Virus record (IMG/VR): IMGVR_UViG_3300005618_000059
Span: 1-22,161 of that record
From: a virus
Strand: one strand, 5' to 3'
DNA: 22,161 nucleotides
Shown here: one piece after another, positions 14,977 to 22,151 of the stretch
Position numbering within the stretch: the first letter of the stretch is position 1
Layout: each line of letters opens with the position of its first letter
The notes under the pieces: model-generated
The model's input: the letters and a program-made list of their open reading frames with translations, nothing else
Database searches by the model: none
What the model was told of the DNA's origin: nothing
Translations under genes and position numbers: made by a program

Positions 14977-16485
14977 TCAGAAGCTGGTGACCACGATCAC
15001 GACACCGGCGCCGCCACCCGAACCTGCGCCAGAGTTGTTGCCGTTCAGGGACGCCCCACCACCCGACCCGCCGCCACCCGGCGCGGGTGTACCACCGCGA
15101 CCAGCAGCCCCCGTGATGGACGCCGCTCCGCCACCACCCGAAGTAGTGGCCAACCCGGACGCCGCCGACGCCGCTGGGCTGTCCGGTCCGTTACCACCGG
15201 GAACAGTGCCGCCGGCGGGCCGATCCGTGGACAAGCTGAACGCGGAGTTCCGGCCGCCGCTGCCGCCCGCCGACGGCGAATCACCGGAAGTGATACCCCC
15301 ACCCGACGCGCCACCGGGTCCACCTGCGCCACCCGGGGCGTTCGCGTCACCGCCGTTGGTTCCCGCCCCGCCGCTGGTGGAGGCCGTGCCACCGCCAGCG
15401 CCGGAGAACACGCCGACGACAGCCTGGCCGCCGCCGGTGCCGGCAGTGGCGGTGCCGCCGCTCCCGGCGCTGCCACCCGCAGCGACCACGAGGGCCCTGG
15501 CGATGGTGGTGCCGAACTGCGAGTTCGTCCCGGCTGTCCCAGCGTTGCCGTTCGTGTCATCGGCGGTGACTGCGGCACCACCCGTACCGGGGGTACCGAC
15601 GGTGACGGTCTCGGTCGGGTTGAGGATGGACGCGTCGACGATCAACTCAGATCGGGCGCCACCACCAGCACCACCACCGCCACACCGGACCGTCCCGGCG
15701 GCGCCACGACGCCCCGAACCGCCACCCCCACCCGGGCCGTGGACGATGACCCGGACCGTTTTCGCGCCAGCCGGCTTCGTCCAGGTCCCCGACGCCGTGA
15801 ACACCTGCACGTCAGTCGAGTTCTGGGTGGCGGCCGTCCCGAGCCCGAGGTTGGTGCGCGCGGTCGCCGCCGACGTGAGGTCGGACAAGTTGTTCGCCGC
15901 CTGCGCCAGCGCCGACAGCGGCAGGTCGTCGGCCACGACGTACCAGACGCCCAGGCTGGCCTTGTACTGCATGACGGCGCCCTGCGCCTGGTAGGTCAAG
16001 ATGAGGCTTGTTCCACCACCGGACCGGTTGAAGACGTCAGACCCACCGCAGTTGATCGTGACGGTGTTGCTGCCGCCCCGGAGTACGTGCTTGGCGGCGA
16101 CAACCTTCCCGTCTGCGGGCGCGGTCGGGAGCGTGAGAACCAGGCTCCCGGAAGTCGTGTCGAACGGAACCAGATCACCTGCCGCGGCCGTGTAGTTCGC
16201 GGTCTTGACCGCCGTCGGGGTCAGCCCGAGACCGTCGCTGCCGCCGCCGCCCGCGACACCGGTCACTGTGGCGCCCGTGAAGTCCTGCGTACCGGTGAAG
16301 ACGTTCGGGCCGGCCTTCGCCGCGTACAAGGCGCCCAGCGCCGCCAACGCGTCGGACGAGAAATCCTGTCCCTCAACGGAACCCGTCGGGACCACGCTCG
16401 CCGACTGCAACGCCACCATCGCCGCCGCCGCGGCCGTGTAGTTCCCCGCGTTCAACGCCGCCGTCAAATCGGATGCTGCGGACAC
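14977..16485 (-). CDS. Glycine-rich fiber protein inserted among neck genes
   Basis: A 502-residue protein. The GTG at 16485 is preferred because GGGGGG (16492-16497) lies 6 bases away; a TTG at 16491 would touch it. Residues about 12-50 are the module shared with the propeller fiber (VPTGSVEGQDFSSDAL). Residues about 90-190 are beta-rich (GDLVPFDTTSGSLVLTLP, GGSNTVTINCGG). Next comes the fiber segment NNLSDLTSAATARTNLGLGTAA, then FTASGTWTKPAGAKTVRVIVHG, which opens a glycine-rich domain of about 260 residues (many GGxGG, GGAGG) ending in GVVIVVTSF. Glycine-rich tips of this type (polyglycine helical sandwich) bind receptors in some T-even-like adhesins. Host-surface attachment is likely. Whether it sits on tail or head is unknown. 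Confidence 0.8.
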   Translation of the reverse strand: MSAASDLTAALNAGNYTAAAAAMVALQSASVVPTGSVEGQDFSSDALAALGALYAAKAGPNVFTGTQDFTGATVTGVAGGGGSDGLGLTPTAVKTANYTAAAGDLVPFDTTSGSLVLTLPTAPADGKVVAAKHVLRGGSNTVTINCGGSDVFNRSGGGTSLILTYQAQGAVMQYKASLGVWYVVADDLPLSALAQAANNLSDLTSAATARTNLGLGTAATQNSTDVQVFTASGTWTKPAGAKTVRVIVHGPGGGGGSGRRGAAGTVRCGGGGAGGGARSELIVDASILNPTETVTVGTPGTGGAAVTADDTNGNAGTAGTNSQFGTTIARALVVAAGGSAGSGGTATAGTGGGQAVVGVFSGAGGGTASTSGGAGTNGGDANAPGGAGGPGGASGGGITSGDSPSAGGSGGRNSAFSLSTDRPAGGTVPGGNGPDSPAASAASGLATTSGGGGAASITGAAGRGGTPAPGGGGSGGGASLNGNNSGAGSGGGAGVVIVVTSF

Positions 16486-16487
16486 CG

Positions 16488-17165
16488 TCAACCCCCCACC
16501 GAGAACACGCCGCCGCGGCGGAGACCGATAGCTCGCAGATCCTGACGCAACTGGTTGATCAACGAGGCGGGGCCGGTGCCCCGCTGATTACCCATGTACT
16601 GGACCCGGACCCCACCAACCTGCTCCTCGCGGATCAGGCCAGGGTTCACCACGAACCCCGCCGCCAACCCGAGCATGATGTCCAACAAGCCCGGCGGCAG
16701 AGCCGCACTCGACTGGTAACCCGACGACCACGTCACCTGCACACGCGGCCCCCACACCTCGCTGCCACGCTGCTGGCCCGGCCACCACCACAGCGACGGC
16801 CACCGCGCCGCCGGGAAATACTGGCCCGGCCACGGCGCGCCCGGCCACCTACGGGACAGGACATCGCCCTGGACGTAGAAGTACTGGCCCTCGACCACCA
16901 GGTGCGTCGCACCCGACATGTCGACCTCGTACACCGTCAACGGGTCCGACGGGCCCCGCACCAGGGGCCGCTGCGGCAGCACGATCCGGTCCGTCCCACC
17001 GACCAGGGTCTGGGTCTGTCCCTGCACGAACTCCAACGACAGGCCAGCCACCGACTTGATCAGACCGGCGGCCCGGTCGATCGCCAACTGGGCCTGCCCG
17101 GAATCCAGGTCAGGGTTCGCGAGGTGCGTGCGGAGCTGGTCGACGGTGAGGAACGTCAACGCCAC
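16488..17165 (-). CDS. Head-tail connector (adaptor) protein
   Basis: A 225-residue protein with the adaptor pattern (HK97 gp6 / SPP1 gp15-like): helix FLTVDQLRTHLANPDLDSGQAQLAIDRAAGLIKSVAG, a beta part with LPQRPLVRGPSDPLTVYEVDM, and a late helix LPPGLLDIMLGLAAGFVVNPGLIREEQVGGVRVQYMG. These proteins form a ring under the portal. An unusual Trp/Pro-rich loop occupies about 105-130 (six Trp in 22 residues). GTG at 17165 has GAGGGGG at about 8 bases. The stop at 16488 lies against the fiber start. Assignment follows from helix pattern and position after the head genes. Confidence 0.75.
   Translation of the reverse strand: MALTFLTVDQLRTHLANPDLDSGQAQLAIDRAAGLIKSVAGLSLEFVQGQTQTLVGGTDRIVLPQRPLVRGPSDPLTVYEVDMSGATHLVVEGQYFYVQGDVLSRRWPGAPWPGQYFPAARWPSLWWWPGQQRGSEVWGPRVQVTWSSGYQSSAALPPGLLDIMLGLAAGFVVNPGLIREEQVGGVRVQYMGNQRGTGPASLINQLRQDLRAIGLRRGGVFSVGG
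16492..16497 (-). promoter_or_regulatory. Ribosome binding site fixing the glycine-rich fiber start
   Basis: On the minus strand the bases are GGTGGGGGG, ending directly before TTG 16491-16489 and 6 bases before GTG 16485-16483. The spacing supports the GTG. Confidence 0.5.
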
Positions 17166-17751: not shown

Positions 17752-18480
17752 CTAGTCGACGTCCACGGCAGGCGGGAAATTCAGGTCCGCGGCCGGGCCG
17801 AGCACCTGCAGCGCGACCACGTCGTAGGCGCGCGCCGCGGCTTCTTCCGTCGGGAACCGGCCAGGGCAGTACGCCTTACCGTTGATCCGCAGACGGGCCT
17901 GCCACTTCTCGTTGACCTTGTCCCAGGAGACGCCCCGGTACTTCGACTTCCCGCGGCCGACCGTGTTCCTGGTCGCCTTCACCTCTGCGGCGGTACGCAG
18001 GGGTTCGCCGGGGAAGTTCAGCAGCGCGTAGCTACCCCACGTGGAGAACGCCTTCCAGTCGTAGGCGCGGGCTGCGTCTTCCTCGGACATGAACGTCCCG
18101 AGGTGGTAGGTCGTGTCGTCCGTATGGACTCTGGCCACCCACCGTTGTCCGGGCATGGCGGTGACGCCCTTGAACGCCGACGACGACCCGGGTACGGCCC
18201 CCCGGTTCGCCTGGTTCAGCGAGTTGGTGGCGAGTCGCAGGTTTGACCGGCGGTTGTTGAGGCCGTTCCCGTCGCGGTGGTCGACGGGCGACCCGGCGGG
18301 GGCGGCCATGATGTGCCGGTGTACGAGCACCCACCGTTTCCCGGCGGGGGTTTCCTCTGCGAAGCGGGCGTACAGGACGTTCTTGGTCCGGTGCGTGTAG
18401 AGGCGTCGGCCGGATAGCAGGGGGACATCCTCGTCGTCGATCGTGAGGATGTCCCCCGAGATGGTGCGGAGTTCAGTCAT
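17752..18480 (-). CDS. Free-standing HNH homing endonuclease with two AP2 DNA-binding domains
   Basis: A 242-residue protein. HNH domain about 45-92: WVLVHRHIMAAP...PVDHRDGNGLNNRRSNLRLATNSLNQAN, with the DHxDxNxLxNRxxNLR signature. Two AP2 domains follow, about 102-157 (FKGVTAMPGQRWVARVHTDDTTYHLGTFMSEEDAARAYDWKAF...LNFP) and about 179-236 (YRGVSWDKVNEKWQARLRINGKAYCPGRFPTEEAAARAYDVVAL...LNFP). Such proteins cut a specific site, often in the homologous locus of a phage lacking the gene, so that repair copies the gene across. The ATG at 18480 has a weak ribosome site. It sits between the capsid gene and the next head gene with no intron boundaries seen, so it appears free-standing. Both AP2 copies look intact. 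Confidence 0.93.
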   Translation of the reverse strand: MTELRTISGDILTIDDEDVPLLSGRRLYTHRTKNVLYARFAEETPAGKRWVLVHRHIMAAPAGSPVDHRDGNGLNNRRSNLRLATNSLNQANRGAVPGSSSAFKGVTAMPGQRWVARVHTDDTTYHLGTFMSEEDAARAYDWKAFSTWGSYALLNFPGEPLRTAAEVKATRNTVGRGKSKYRGVSWDKVNEKWQARLRINGKAYCPGRFPTEEAAARAYDVVALQVLGPAADLNFPPAVDVD

Positions 18481-18511: not shown

Positions 18512-19864
18512 TCACGAATGCTGGATCATGATCCCTCGCTTGTACGTAGCGGCGTCGCCGGTGTTCGCGTCCGACGGGACACCGAAGTCGCCGGTCCACG
18601 ACCACGTGGTGTTGATCTTCTGCTGGAGGTTGTCCTGCGCCGGCCGAACGATGATCACCGTGTCGATGCCAGCGGCCACGTTCACCATCGTCACGTTCGG
18701 GACCGTCGCCACACCCGTGCCGTCCAGGAGCTGGCCCTGGCCCTCCAGCGGCGCCGAGATCAGCGACCCCGCACCCATCACCATCGGCCGGTGCACCGTC
18801 AACGTCCCCGCCACACCCGACGCCGCGGTACCGCCGTCAAGGATGGTCGGGGCCTCCACGTTCCGCACCCAGTCGATCCCCAGGAACGTGCCGATCGACA
18901 TGTCCCGGAACACCGCCGAGTCGCCCCGGCCCTGGTACGCCTGCCGGAAATCCGAGTCCGCGAACAGCTGCGCCTCAGTGTCCGGGTCGACGTGCGCGAC
19001 GTAGTTCCCGTTGATCGTCGGGACGTTCATCTTCCGCAGCCGGGCCACCGCGGAACGGAACAGGGACGCCGTCGCGATGTTGCTGGCACCCAGGTCGAAC
19101 GCAGTGTTACCGGTCGGCTGGATCACCACCGGAGCAGTCGCCGCGACCACAGCCTGACCAACAGTCACCGCAGTCGCCGAACCGATCGTCAGGTTCCCCG
19201 CGCCCGACGTGGCCGAGGCACCCGTCACGGTGTTCGCGACACCAGCGATCGTCACCGTCAGCGGGTTACCGGCCGACACGGCGGTCGGGACACCATTCAC
19301 CATCTTGGTGAGGAAGCCCTCCACGTCGTGGACGGCGATCGTGGTACCCGACCCCGCGGTCGTAGTCACCCAGGTCCGGCCACCCTTGTACGCGGTATAC
19401 AGCTTGTTCCGCGCCAACTGGTTGATCGACTGGCCGGCGTTCTTGCCGAGGGTCTTCACGTCCTGGGCGTACTTGCTGGCCAGGGCGGTCAGGTTAGCGA
19501 GCATGTCGGTCTGCACCGTCTGCCCGTATTGATCCATAGACACGCTCCAGCTCTCCAGCGGGTACGTGGCGACGGACGAGTCGGATCCGGTGATCGGGGT
19601 GGTGATGACGGGGAGGAGGCCGGTGCGGGTGCTGGTCCGGGTCGAGCCGAGGCCGGCGGTCCACGGGTCGACGTCCGCGAACGCCGCGTACAGCAGTTCG
19701 GGGAACAGGGCGTCCCGGAAGATCTGCTCCAGGAACCCGTTCTGCAGCATCGGCTGCAGGGCGGCGGGGAGCGCGGACCGGATGTCGTGACGGCGGGGGT
19801 TCGGGAGGAACGGGAGGGTCCGGAGCGACCGCTCGGCGCGGTCCGGAACGGTCAGGACGGACAA
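18512..19864 (-). CDS. Major capsid protein, HK97 fold (P22/N4-gp56-like), probably N-terminally processed
   Basis: A 450-residue protein. Start TTG at 19864, because AGGAG lies 7 bases upstream. Capsid features: TYPLESWSVSMDQYGQTVQTDMLANLTALASKYAQDVKTLGKNAGQSINQLARNKLY (about 100-156, spine-helix region). Later come RLRKMNVPTINGNYVAHVDPDTEAQLFADSDFRQAY (about 276-310) and FRDMSIGTFLGIDWVRNVEAPTI (about 319-341). Between about 165 and 250 lies a beta-rich Thr/Val/Gly insert, possibly a surface I-domain-like insertion. Residues 1-27 share a spaced motif with the scaffold N-terminus (M..LT.P, then L..LPF.P...RHD), suggesting both are cut by the same protease. It follows the Prp-like gene by 3 bases. 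Confidence 0.9.
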   Translation of the reverse strand: MSVLTVPDRAERSLRTLPFLPNPRRHDIRSALPAALQPMLQNGFLEQIFRDALFPELLYAAFADVDPWTAGLGSTRTSTRTGLLPVITTPITGSDSSVATYPLESWSVSMDQYGQTVQTDMLANLTALASKYAQDVKTLGKNAGQSINQLARNKLYTAYKGGRTWVTTTAGSGTTIAVHDVEGFLTKMVNGVPTAVSAGNPLTVTIAGVANTVTGASATSGAGNLTIGSATAVTVGQAVVAATAPVVIQPTGNTAFDLGASNIATASLFRSAVARLRKMNVPTINGNYVAHVDPDTEAQLFADSDFRQAYQGRGDSAVFRDMSIGTFLGIDWVRNVEAPTILDGGTAASGVAGTLTVHRPMVMGAGSLISAPLEGQGQLLDGTGVATVPNVTMVNVAAGIDTVIIVRPAQDNLQQKINTTWSWTGDFGVPSDANTGDAATYKRGIMIQHS

Positions 19865-19867
19865 GGC

Positions 19868-20071
19868 TTACTCCTGTTGTTTGATCTCGACCCGGATGTG
19901 TGCCGGGTCCTGTTGGGCCAGCGCGTTGAGGTACGCGATGGTCAGTTCGGTGGCGACGGACACCGCCGCACATGCGCGGGCGCCGTCAAGGTCGCCGGGT
20001 TCGTCCCGGCCGTGCCCGGTGACCTCGATCAGCGTGTGTCCCGGTGCAAGCCGGGCCGAGATCGTGATCAC
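19868..20071 (-). CDS. Prp-like cysteine protease (ribosomal-processing protease/DUF464 family), candidate capsid maturation protease
   Basis: A 67-residue protein. The GTG at 20071 overlaps the scaffold stop (GTGA), and its end carries the capsid ribosome site. Seen: MITISARL, EVTGHGRDEPGDLDGARACAAVSVATELTIAYLNAL, then HIRVEIKQQE. This matches the Prp pattern: MI.v...., GHa...G.D..CAavS, a long helix, then an 'f.i.' strand. His20 and Cys34 correspond to His22 and Cys34 of Staphylococcus aureus Prp. The His-Cys spacing is 14 rather than 12, and the Asp normally three before the Cys is instead at position 29. It is shorter than bacterial Prp (about 105) and lacks the last helix. Known: host Prp trims ribosomal L27 and the phage 80alpha scaffold and capsid. 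Inferred: this one processes its two neighbours. Confidence 0.6.
   Translation of the reverse strand: MITISARLAPGHTLIEVTGHGRDEPGDLDGARACAAVSVATELTIAYLNALAQQDPAHIRVEIKQQE
19871..19875 (-). promoter_or_regulatory. Ribosome binding site for the capsid gene (TTG start)
   Basis: AGGAG on the minus strand, 7 bases before TTG 19864 and inside the last codons of the Prp-like gene. There is no other start codon at usable spacing, so the capsid starts with the rare TTG. Confidence 0.75.
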
Positions 20072-20883
20072 CCGTAGGCGGGGAGCCCGAGGCGCCGCTT
20101 CTCCGCGGCGAGGGTCTCCGGGTCGTTCCAGTTCGGTGTCGACTGGCCGCCCTTCGATCCCTGCCCGGGGTCGGGTGCGGGGGCCCGCTTCTTCGGCTTC
20201 ACCGGAGCAGCGTCCGGGTCGTCGTCGTCGGGCTTGGTGGGCCGCAGCCAGTGCGGTTTCTTCGCGAGGACATCCGCGACGGCCTTCTCGATCGCGTCGG
20301 TGTCGACGCCGGTGTCGGTGATGAACTCGCCCATGCGGCGTTCGAGGTGTTCCATGACGTCGGTCGGGTCGAGGGCGTTCGCTTCGAGGGCCGCGGTCCG
20401 CAGTTCGGACCGGACGGCCCGTTCGTTCGCGGTCTTCTCCCGCGCTGCGGCAGCGGTCGCGGCGGCCTGCGCACGTTCCAACTCGGTGCGCTGGGAGTCC
20501 TCGAACTCCTGGATCCTGGCTTGGGCGGCGGCGAGTTCCTTCCGGGCCGTCTCGGCGTCCCGGGTGGCCTGCTGCCGTTTCACCCGCTCCGCCTGGATCG
20601 ACTTCCAGCGGGGGTCTTTCGGGTCGACGTCGCCCATCAGGTCCCCGGCCGGCTTCGGTGCCGTCTTCGGGGTGGCCTTCTTGGTGGGGGGTGTCTTCTC
20701 GGCGTCGCCGGTTCCAGTGCCGCCGCCGTCGTCGGTGTCGCCGTCAGCGTCCGAGTCGTCGGCCGTGTCGCCGTCGTCGCCATCAGCGGTGTCGTCGTCG
20801 GGTTCGTCGTGGCGGGACCACGACGGGACGAACGGCAGCCAGTACAGGTCGGGCATCGCGCCCGGTGTCGTCAGGGGAGGCAT
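20068..20883 (-). CDS. Capsid scaffolding protein
   Basis: A 271-residue protein. The N-terminal 26 residues carry the motif shared with the capsid N-terminus (L..LPFVP...RHD). Residues about 26-60 are almost purely acidic/Gly (DD, DGD). A Lys/Pro linker follows (about 62-80), then a coiled coil about 95-165 (QAERVKRQQATRDAETARKELAAAQARIQEFEDSQRTELERAQAAATAAAAREK). The C-terminus is basic (KPKKRAPA...AAEKRRLG), suited to binding the inner capsid surface. Acidic head, long coiled coil and basic tail, with position just before the capsid gene, is the usual scaffold architecture. The ATG at 20883 has ACAAGG at about 5 bases. A second ATG at codon 10 would remove part of the shared motif region. 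Confidence 0.85.
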   Translation of the reverse strand: MPPLTTPGAMPDLYWLPFVPSWSRHDEPDDDTADGDDGDTADDSDADGDTDDGGGTGTGDAEKTPPTKKATPKTAPKPAGDLMGDVDPKDPRWKSIQAERVKRQQATRDAETARKELAAAQARIQEFEDSQRTELERAQAAATAAAAREKTANERAVRSELRTAALEANALDPTDVMEHLERRMGEFITDTGVDTDAIEKAVADVLAKKPHWLRPTKPDDDDPDAAPVKPKKRAPAPDPGQGSKGGQSTPNWNDPETLAAEKRRLGLPAYG

Positions 20884-20999: not shown

Positions 21000-22151
21000 C
21001 TAGGAGGCGCGGAAGAGGGCGTTCAGGGCGGCCGTAGAGGTCGCCGCGTCCCGTTCACGGATCAAGTACCCGAAGTTCAGGAGGGCCGTTTCCCGGTCCT
21101 CCCGGGACGCGTGGTCCCGCATGATCTGCGCGACCGTCGGTCGGCCCGGCACCCGGAACTGGCCTTGCACGAGTTCCGTTCCGCCCGCCGGGTTACGCCG
21201 CTGGTACGGCAGGCCACGGGACATGAGGGGCCCGTACTTCGCTGCCGCCGCAGCGGACGCCGCGCGGGACACCGTGAAGTTCGTGTACCGGGCCTGGGGT
21301 GTCCCGGCGGCCTGGTCGATGCGGGCCTGCAGCATCCGTGCACCGCCGACACTGCGGCGGGTGGTGCCCGCCGTCGTGTAGGACCGGCCACCAGCGACGT
21401 ACATGCCCTGTTTCGCGTTCACGACCTGGGAAATGTCCGCGCCGTGGTCGAGGGCTTCCCGTTCCGCCTTCGTGAGGTCCGTGATGCGGCCCTGCCGGTA
21501 CAGGTCGATCGGTGAGGGGATGTCCGCGAGGCCCACGACGGCGACCGGGAGACACACGCAGGAGCATCGGGGGTGGCGTTCGAACGCCCGGACCTTGTAG
21601 ATGCGGCCCGACAGGAGCGCGCACCGGGAACAGCAGCGTGCCCCCACGACCCGGACATACCGTTGGGCGTGGTGGGCGACCATCGATGCCTGCACCGACA
21701 AGGTGCCCGCATCGGGCATCTCCGTCGCCGCGTACATGCGTAGCGCCGCCTCACCGGCCCGCAACGCGTCCCCAGGTGCCATCCCCGCAGCGACAGCGGC
21801 GTCAGCGCGGGCCGCGGGGATCGCGAGGAGAGTGTCCAGGCCGATCCCCGACGCCCCGTCCCCCGCGAACGCCGCCGCATCCACGGCCACGCCGGCTGCT
21901 GCGGGTGTAGCGCCTTGAGCGGTGAGGGTGCGGGCCACGTACCCGTCGGCCATGCCCGCGACCGCCGACTGCCCGGCCGTGAACGCACCGACCGCTTCGG
22001 GGAGCCGCCGCGCCCACCCGGGGCCGATACCGGCGGCGTCCAGTTCCCGCCACAGCATCGCCAGGACCGCCGACACCCGGCCCGTGACCGTCGCCGTCGC
22101 CGCCCGGTAGGCGACGGCCGCGTCGACCGCTGCCTGGGTTTCGTCGGACAC
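21000..22151 (-). CDS. MuF-like minor head protein with zinc-type Cys cluster
   Basis: A 383-residue protein. The N-terminal 150 residues are Ala-rich and helical. The core is VVGARCCSRCALLSGRIYKVRAFERHPRCSCVCLPV (about 168-203), with Cys173, Cys174 and Cys177, then His193, Cys196, Cys198 and Cys200. This is the 'CxxC...RHxxCxC' cluster of capsid-minor/MuF-like (VG-like) proteins that bind the portal or capsid interior and may be ejected with DNA. The later part has QVVNAKQGMYVAGGRSYTTAGTTRR and QAAGTPQARYTNFTV, typical of the family. GTG at 22151 has GGGG in the last ten bases of the window, so the start appears complete. The portal gene would be expected just beyond the right edge. Confidence 0.85.
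   Translation of the reverse strand: MSDETQAAVDAAVAYRAATATVTGRVSAVLAMLWRELDAAGIGPGWARRLPEAVGAFTAGQSAVAGMADGYVARTLTAQGATPAAAGVAVDAAAFAGDGASGIGLDTLLAIPAARADAAVAAGMAPGDALRAGEAALRMYAATEMPDAGTLSVQASMVAHHAQRYVRVVGARCCSRCALLSGRIYKVRAFERHPRCSCVCLPVAVVGLADIPSPIDLYRQGRITDLTKAEREALDHGADISQVVNAKQGMYVAGGRSYTTAGTTRRSVGGARMLQARIDQAAGTPQARYTNFTVSRAASAAAAAKYGPLMSRGLPYQRRNPAGGTELVQGQFRVPGRPTVAQIMRDHASREDRETALLNFGYLIRERDAATSTAALNALFRAS

Follow-up and report, generated by a model that had tools for sequence, protein, structure and literature searches.

The scaffold protein and the major capsid protein of the virus analysed here begin with the same short motif, and the leaders that carry it are very probably paired substrates of a small phage-encoded Prp-like cysteine protease whose gene lies between theirs, both leaders being removed at RH↓D (the arrow marks the presumed cut). 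The window, i.e., the whole stretch of DNA analysed, is a viral record of 22,161 nt in which the head genes (MuF-like, scaffold, Prp-like and capsid) all lie on the minus strand (Table 1). The virus infects soil bacteria, and its arrangement resembles that of Staphylococcus phage 80alpha but with a protease of its own and a different tag sequence. It is already known that the host Prp cuts both proteins of 80alpha, and that a phage protease of clan CR cuts the head protein of Cp-1. In the open-access literature searched, neither paired leaders accompanied by a Prp of the phage's own nor the WFxLxRH↓D motif reported below was found described.

Table 1. Head operon features of the window, in positions of the whole stretch
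Feature	Position	Strand	Basis or remark
Scaffold protein gene, 271 aa, acidic then coiled-coil	20068..20883	-	phrog_4708 head scaffolding E 2e-9; PF06810 33 bits
Miniature Prp-like cysteine protease gene, 67 aa, putative dyad His20 + Cys34	19868..20071	-	4-bp overlap with scaffold gene
Putative catalytic His20 codon, Prp-like protein	20012..20014	-	Invariant in alignments A1, A3, A4, A5
Putative catalytic Cys34 codon, Prp-like protein	19970..19972	-	Invariant in alignments A1, A3, A4, A5
Major capsid protein gene, 450 aa, TTG start, N4-gp56-like	18512..19864	-	phrog_1357 major head protein E 4e-23; TIGR04387 45.9 bits (below cut-off)
AGGAG ribosome-binding sequence, good spacing to capsid TTG start	19871..19875	-	Sequence
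MuF-like minor head protein gene, neighbour, rival protease	21000..22151	-	phrog_1522 E 1e-44; weak TIGR01641 SPP1 gp7
Scaffold leader, residues 1-25, predicted removal, cut H25↓D26	20809..20883	-	RH↓D register in ~140 related loci and Firmicute Prp sites
Capsid leader, residues 1-26, predicted removal, cut H26↓D27	19787..19864	-	D27 aligned to start Met of leaderless Prp-less relatives
Shared motif copy, scaffold: LPFVPSWSRHD, residues 16-26	20806..20838	-	Sequence alignment
Shared motif copy, capsid: LPFLPNPRRHD, residues 17-27	19784..19816	-	Sequence alignment

The Shared N-Terminal Motif

The scaffold protein begins MPPLTTPGAMPDLYWLPFVPSWSRHDEPDDD and the capsid protein, from its TTG start, MSVLTVPDRAERSLRTLPFLPNPRRHDIRSAL. 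Aligned as MPPLTTPGAMPDLYWLPFVPSWSRHD and MSVLTVPDRAERSLRTLPFLPNPRRHD, they share M..LT.P followed by L..LPF[VL]P...RHD with a one-residue gap, exactly as the sequence-only reading had claimed, and 13 positions are identical. This N-terminal stretch of 26/27 residues is the best local alignment between the full scaffold and the full capsid. The first 30 residues of each protein score 46 against one another, compared with a mean of 18.6 (s.d. 3.9) for shuffles, none of 5000 of which reached 46. Once the N-termini are removed, the similarity of the two bodies falls to shuffle level, the score being reached by 173 of 300 shuffles, which confirms that the proteins are otherwise unrelated. Neither LPF.P nor RHD occurs in any other window protein checked. 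The gene between them was likewise correctly read as Prp-like, with matches to PF04327 (E 5e-4; 20.7 bits, under the 27-bit cut-off) and phrog_4478 (E 2.6e-5). An alternative scaffold start at the second Met (residue 10) would retain the conserved core of the motif; what relatives conserve is not the initial M..LT.P but the core that closes with RHD.

Conservation and Co-Variation among Relatives

A capsid search yielded 5 related loci, an alignment of Prp sequences 66 from viruses and 15 from genomes, and a capsid profile some 80 others, the sets sharing contigs; a search of plasmids added nothing useful. The relatives comprise phages and prophages of actinobacteria and viral contigs from soil, the genome loci coming from Streptomyces, Streptosporangiaceae, Catenulispora, Glycomyces and Sphaerimonospora, and the annotated phage among them being Streptomyces phage Kromp (MH744420). 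In some 140 related loci, which comprise 79 distinct combinations, the gene order is always scaffold, Prp, capsid; both structural proteins carry W-F-x-L-x-R-H-[D/A] at their N-termini, and a Prp-like gene of 62-67 aa always lies between. Stated more fully, each of them has, near the N-terminus, a sequence that fits W-F-x-[L/I]-x-R-H-[D/A/E/N] or comes close to it. All three parts were recovered by script in 141 loci, and the remainder consists of contig ends, pattern misses settled by eye and one frameshift. Wherever both ends and the Prp gene are complete, the motif is present on both partners; loss of the motif from one partner while the protease persists, which the sequence-only reading had named as refuting it, was looked for and found in no locus. 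Two kinds of apparent exception were rejected: loci such as L091, L107, L147, L148 and others, which carry the motif and seemed to be Prp-less, encode a Prp with a CAAIT, CAAVT or CAYVT variant, and the scaffold of L033/L133, which seemed to be without the motif, has it behind a contig frameshift.

The paired copies (scaffold/capsid) read, for instance, WFDLARHD/WFDLARHD in L003, WFQLTRHD/WFRLDRHD in Kromp, WRFQLDRHD/FRFDLGRHD in L081, WLFDLARHD/WAFDLGRHD in L085 and WLFLLNRFD/VFRLDRFD in L164. P2 is Arg in every pair and P1 is His in nearly all, with Phe at P1 in the scaffolds of L004, L025, L164 and L166 and in the capsid of L164. In the 49 kb of Kromp examined, the motif occurs at two N-termini only, those of scaffold and capsid. 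Three loci (L031, L032 and L079, capsid gene from 3192) carry two tandem copies at the capsid N-terminus (WFRLDRHD ... WFDLGRHD).

The two copies also change together. Scaffold-motif and capsid-motif distances are correlated over the 79 distinct combinations (Mantel 0.645), and the co-variation persists after regression on capsid-body distance, the one covariate used to control for relatedness (partial Mantel r 0.569, p 0.0002; 0.51 without the window lineage). For this analysis, the motif register of L037, L064-L066, L081, L146, L166 and L168 was set by hand. All 7 capsids without Trp at P7 are paired with scaffolds that are also without it, and none of the 67 pairs with a scaffold Trp contains such a capsid. 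With the motif found on both partners where Prp is present, absent where it is not (see below), and co-varying between its copies, the proposal of a common protease site is strongly supported.

Within this set, the window is, by its sequence, a divergent variant, LPF[VL]P...RHD, accompanied by a divergent Prp; a search for further relatives of the variant with their own Prp retrieved only L009, a near-identical contig.

The Small Prp-Like Protein

PF04327 matched in all 18 relatives scanned (best E 8e-10) and phrog_4478 'peptidase' in all 46, and both the His of a GH pair and the Cys of CAA[V/I][S/T] are invariant in the corresponding 18- and 46-sequence alignments. Kromp (28.7 bits) and three prophage relatives (27.6-31.7 bits) exceed the PF04327 cut-off that the window protein falls short of. 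Scores against the NCBIfam equivalog 'ribosomal-processing cysteine protease Prp' are 13-23 bits, against cut-offs above 120, and the 62-67 aa of the small proteins are less than full length, known Prps having about 95-120 aa. Some 36-40 central residues are missing relative to S. mutans Prp and a full-length phage Prp; between its His and Cys, the window protein is four residues longer. Sequence profiles match 2g0i (SMU.848; E 2e-4) and 4peo/7kld (0.05). The AF2 models give a beta-beta-helix with pLDDT 76 and 87 (the latter with 46 sequences); a Foldseek search of both models against the PDB retrieved no Prp structure, so that membership of the Prp fold is putative. We have filed the protein as a miniature divergent Prp relative (PF04327, MEROPS C108, clan CR) outside the standard members. 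The usual active-site sequence is CAAVS, and variants that keep the Cys occur, namely CAYVT in L148 (925-1113), and CAAIT and CAAVT among L091 (2268-2456) and L107 (2277-2468).

Among 297 Actinomycetota genomes, PF04327 exceeds its cut-off in one, through the prophage gene of the reference genome, and in three host genomes the prophage copy is the sole one. As the genomes examined carry no Prp of their own, the hosts appear unable to supply the activity in the way that the Staphylococcus host does for 80alpha.

The Predicted Cut Site

Published Prp sites are LKLNLQFF↓A in L27, LKLNLQHF↓A in the 80alpha capsid and LKFNLQFF↓A in the 80alpha scaffold (PMC9405229; PMC5744158). Firmicute phages that encode a full-length Prp (95-101 aa) in the head operon (L255, L257-L260, L262, L265, L266 and L270-L275) bear L27-like LQxF leaders on scaffold and capsid alike. 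Examples are RMLQLF↓A and MMLQLF↓A in MT835606, KMNLQLF↓A and RMNLQKF↓A in Brochothrix phage BL3, and KLNLQLF↓A and KFNLQRF↓A in Lactococcus phage PLgT-1. Acutalibacter phage Fontainebleau has FNLQLF↓D on both proteins, with Asp instead of Ala after the presumed cut, so that its F-N-L-Q-L-F↓D and the actinophage F-D-L-A-R-H↓D agree at P6, P4 and P1'. This shared register, together with the Phe found at P1 in a few actinophage motifs, places the predicted cut at RH↓D. The residues differ from those of the L27-type site LQ[FHL]F↓A, being WFxLxRH↓[D/A] in the relatives and LPF[VL]P...RH↓D in the window, while the register is the same. In the window, Pro and Trp replace the mainstream hydrophobics at P6 and P4, so recognition must differ there; its hydrophobic residues sit further upstream, in LPF[VL]P, alike in scaffold and capsid.

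A second line of evidence comes from Komagataeibacter phage phiKX1 and from 80 related viral loci, whose capsids are homologous to that of the window. No Prp gene was found in the stretches examined around them (0 of the 80 loci), no leader is present on the capsids read, which start M[A/G/S]I.NFPA.LQP, and the motif is absent from the start of the scaffolds found. In the alignment, the start Met of these capsids falls on D27 of the window capsid, and no gap intervenes before the conserved Pro, so that a cut at RH↓D would give the leader-bearing phages the capsid N-terminus that Prp-less relatives have natively.

The sequence-only reading had guessed at cleavage near LPF[VL]. This is not favoured: LPF is peculiar to the window lineage and absent from all others, R-H-[D/A] is near-invariant and matches LxLQxF↓A, the known Prp site, in its register, and it is D27 that aligns with the Met of the Prp-less capsids. 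The predicted cut thus falls 7-8 residues beyond LPF[VL].

In the mechanism that we infer, which takes in the activity of the small protein as well as the timing, exact bond and assembly role of the cut, the scaffold-Prp-capsid operon would be translated and the phage's own miniature Prp would recognise the tail of each leader and cut after the His of R-H↓D, taking 25 residues off the scaffold and 26 off the capsid. In most relatives the site would be W-F-x-L-x-R-H↓[D/A], in the register of the Firmicute F/L-x-L-Q-x-F↓[A/D]. The Kromp capsid (gp7) would then acquire the N-terminus DIRTTLPAAIRAI, with D21 as its first residue. Peptides spanning the predicted cut would be ...WFRLDRHDIRT in Kromp and ...LPFLPNPRRHDIRS in the window.

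Alternative Explanations

The leader might instead be primarily a shared tag for docking or folding, whose partner could be a chaperone, the portal or, in the role of an assembly factor, the Prp-like protein, with cutting secondary or absent. Assembly of 80alpha requires the scaffold N-terminus but can do without cleavage of scaffold or capsid (PMC5744158), and a small Prp without part of the classical protein would suit such a role. However, conservation peaks at the residues fitting the Prp P6-P1' pattern and drops before them, the His and Cys of the small protein are invariant although a mere binding protein would not need them, and the predicted new capsid N-terminus is that of the leaderless relatives. 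We consider this explanation unlikely. Even with cleavage as the preferred reading, the 80alpha precedent leads us to expect that the scaffold leader would matter for assembly whether or not the cutting does.

It is very improbable that the leaders are cut not by Prp but by the MuF-like neighbour. In favour of this idea, Kromp gp4 is annotated 'capsid maturation protease' and phrog_1522 is called a head maturation protease, but the protein has no peptidase domain match in Pfam or NCBIfam and is weakly similar to the SPP1 gp7 minor capsid protein. Moreover, the motif co-varies with the Prp sequence in scaffold and capsid (partial Mantel 0.37 and 0.39, respectively), and LQxF leaders accompany Prp in Firmicute phages too. 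The MuF-like gene of the window is the counterpart of Kromp gp4 (L007, 3440-4456), and its product resembles minor head proteins of the MuF/SPP1 gp7 kind.

It is scarcely credible that recombination carried the leader from one of the genes into the other, where it would persist as a neutral relic; the match is indeed confined to the N-termini, but the motif is kept on both proteins, with matched substitutions, down to about 50% capsid identity, and the two genes differ in leader length and in what precedes the core. Chance resemblance of two short ends, for which one could point to just 13 identical positions in the window pair, is refuted by the shuffles and by conservation in all related loci.

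Comparison with Known Systems

Among the closest known systems is 80alpha, in which the host Prp cuts capsid and scaffold between F and A (PMC5744158). Both systems place the same short leader on capsid and scaffold, which a Prp-family cysteine protease cuts in 80alpha and is predicted to cut here, and hydrophobic P6 and P4 residues are common to 80alpha and the mainstream actinophage motif (PMC5744158, PMC9405229). They differ in that 80alpha relies on the host Prp and the L27 site LQ[FH]F↓A, while here a shortened phage Prp would act on WFxLxRH↓D in hosts that, where checked, are without Prp. In pneumococcal phage Cp-1, a clan CR protease shortens the major head protein by an N-terminal extension of 48 residues (Martin 1998, cited in PMC12445089). 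This is likewise a phage-encoded Prp-clan protease acting on the N-terminus of a head protein, but the sources consulted mention no paired scaffold leader. The Firmicute phages (Fontainebleau, BL3, PLgT-1 and MT835606) likewise encode a Prp within the head operon and have leaders on both scaffold and capsid, and are unlike the window in the full length of the enzyme and the L27-like LQxF↓[A/D]. Kromp has the same gene order (gp5-gp6-gp7), gp6 annotated 'protease' and the motif on both proteins; beyond that annotation, no description of the shared leader or site was found in the literature searched. Virions of Kromp grown on S. coelicolor M145 and purified with CsCl have been published (PMC13175485).

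These results would extend Prp-type head processing to a large set of actinobacterial phages with Prp-lacking hosts, with a new motif and a protease of about 62 residues. They name exact candidate bonds, suggest an annotation rule (paired leaders beside a tiny Prp) and provide dozens of natural enzyme-substrate-substrate triples for specificity studies. They also bear on why such leaders exist, since the cut itself is dispensable in 80alpha. There is perhaps an even chance that the miniaturised Prp has switched specificity two or more times, once in actinophages, from F↓A to RH↓D, and again in the window lineage, to an extended LPF[VL]P...RH↓D, with both substrates following each time; if so, these phages form a natural series of one protease co-evolving with two substrates.

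Two other genes of the window, both on the minus strand, are worth recording. Immediately after the capsid gene, and still inside the head operon, lies the gene of a 242-aa protein with HNH_3 and AP2 domains, of homing-endonuclease type (17752-18480). A 504-aa ORF (14977-16491) occupies the position of a tail/fibre-like protein, and its C-terminal half is long, glycine-rich and of low complexity.
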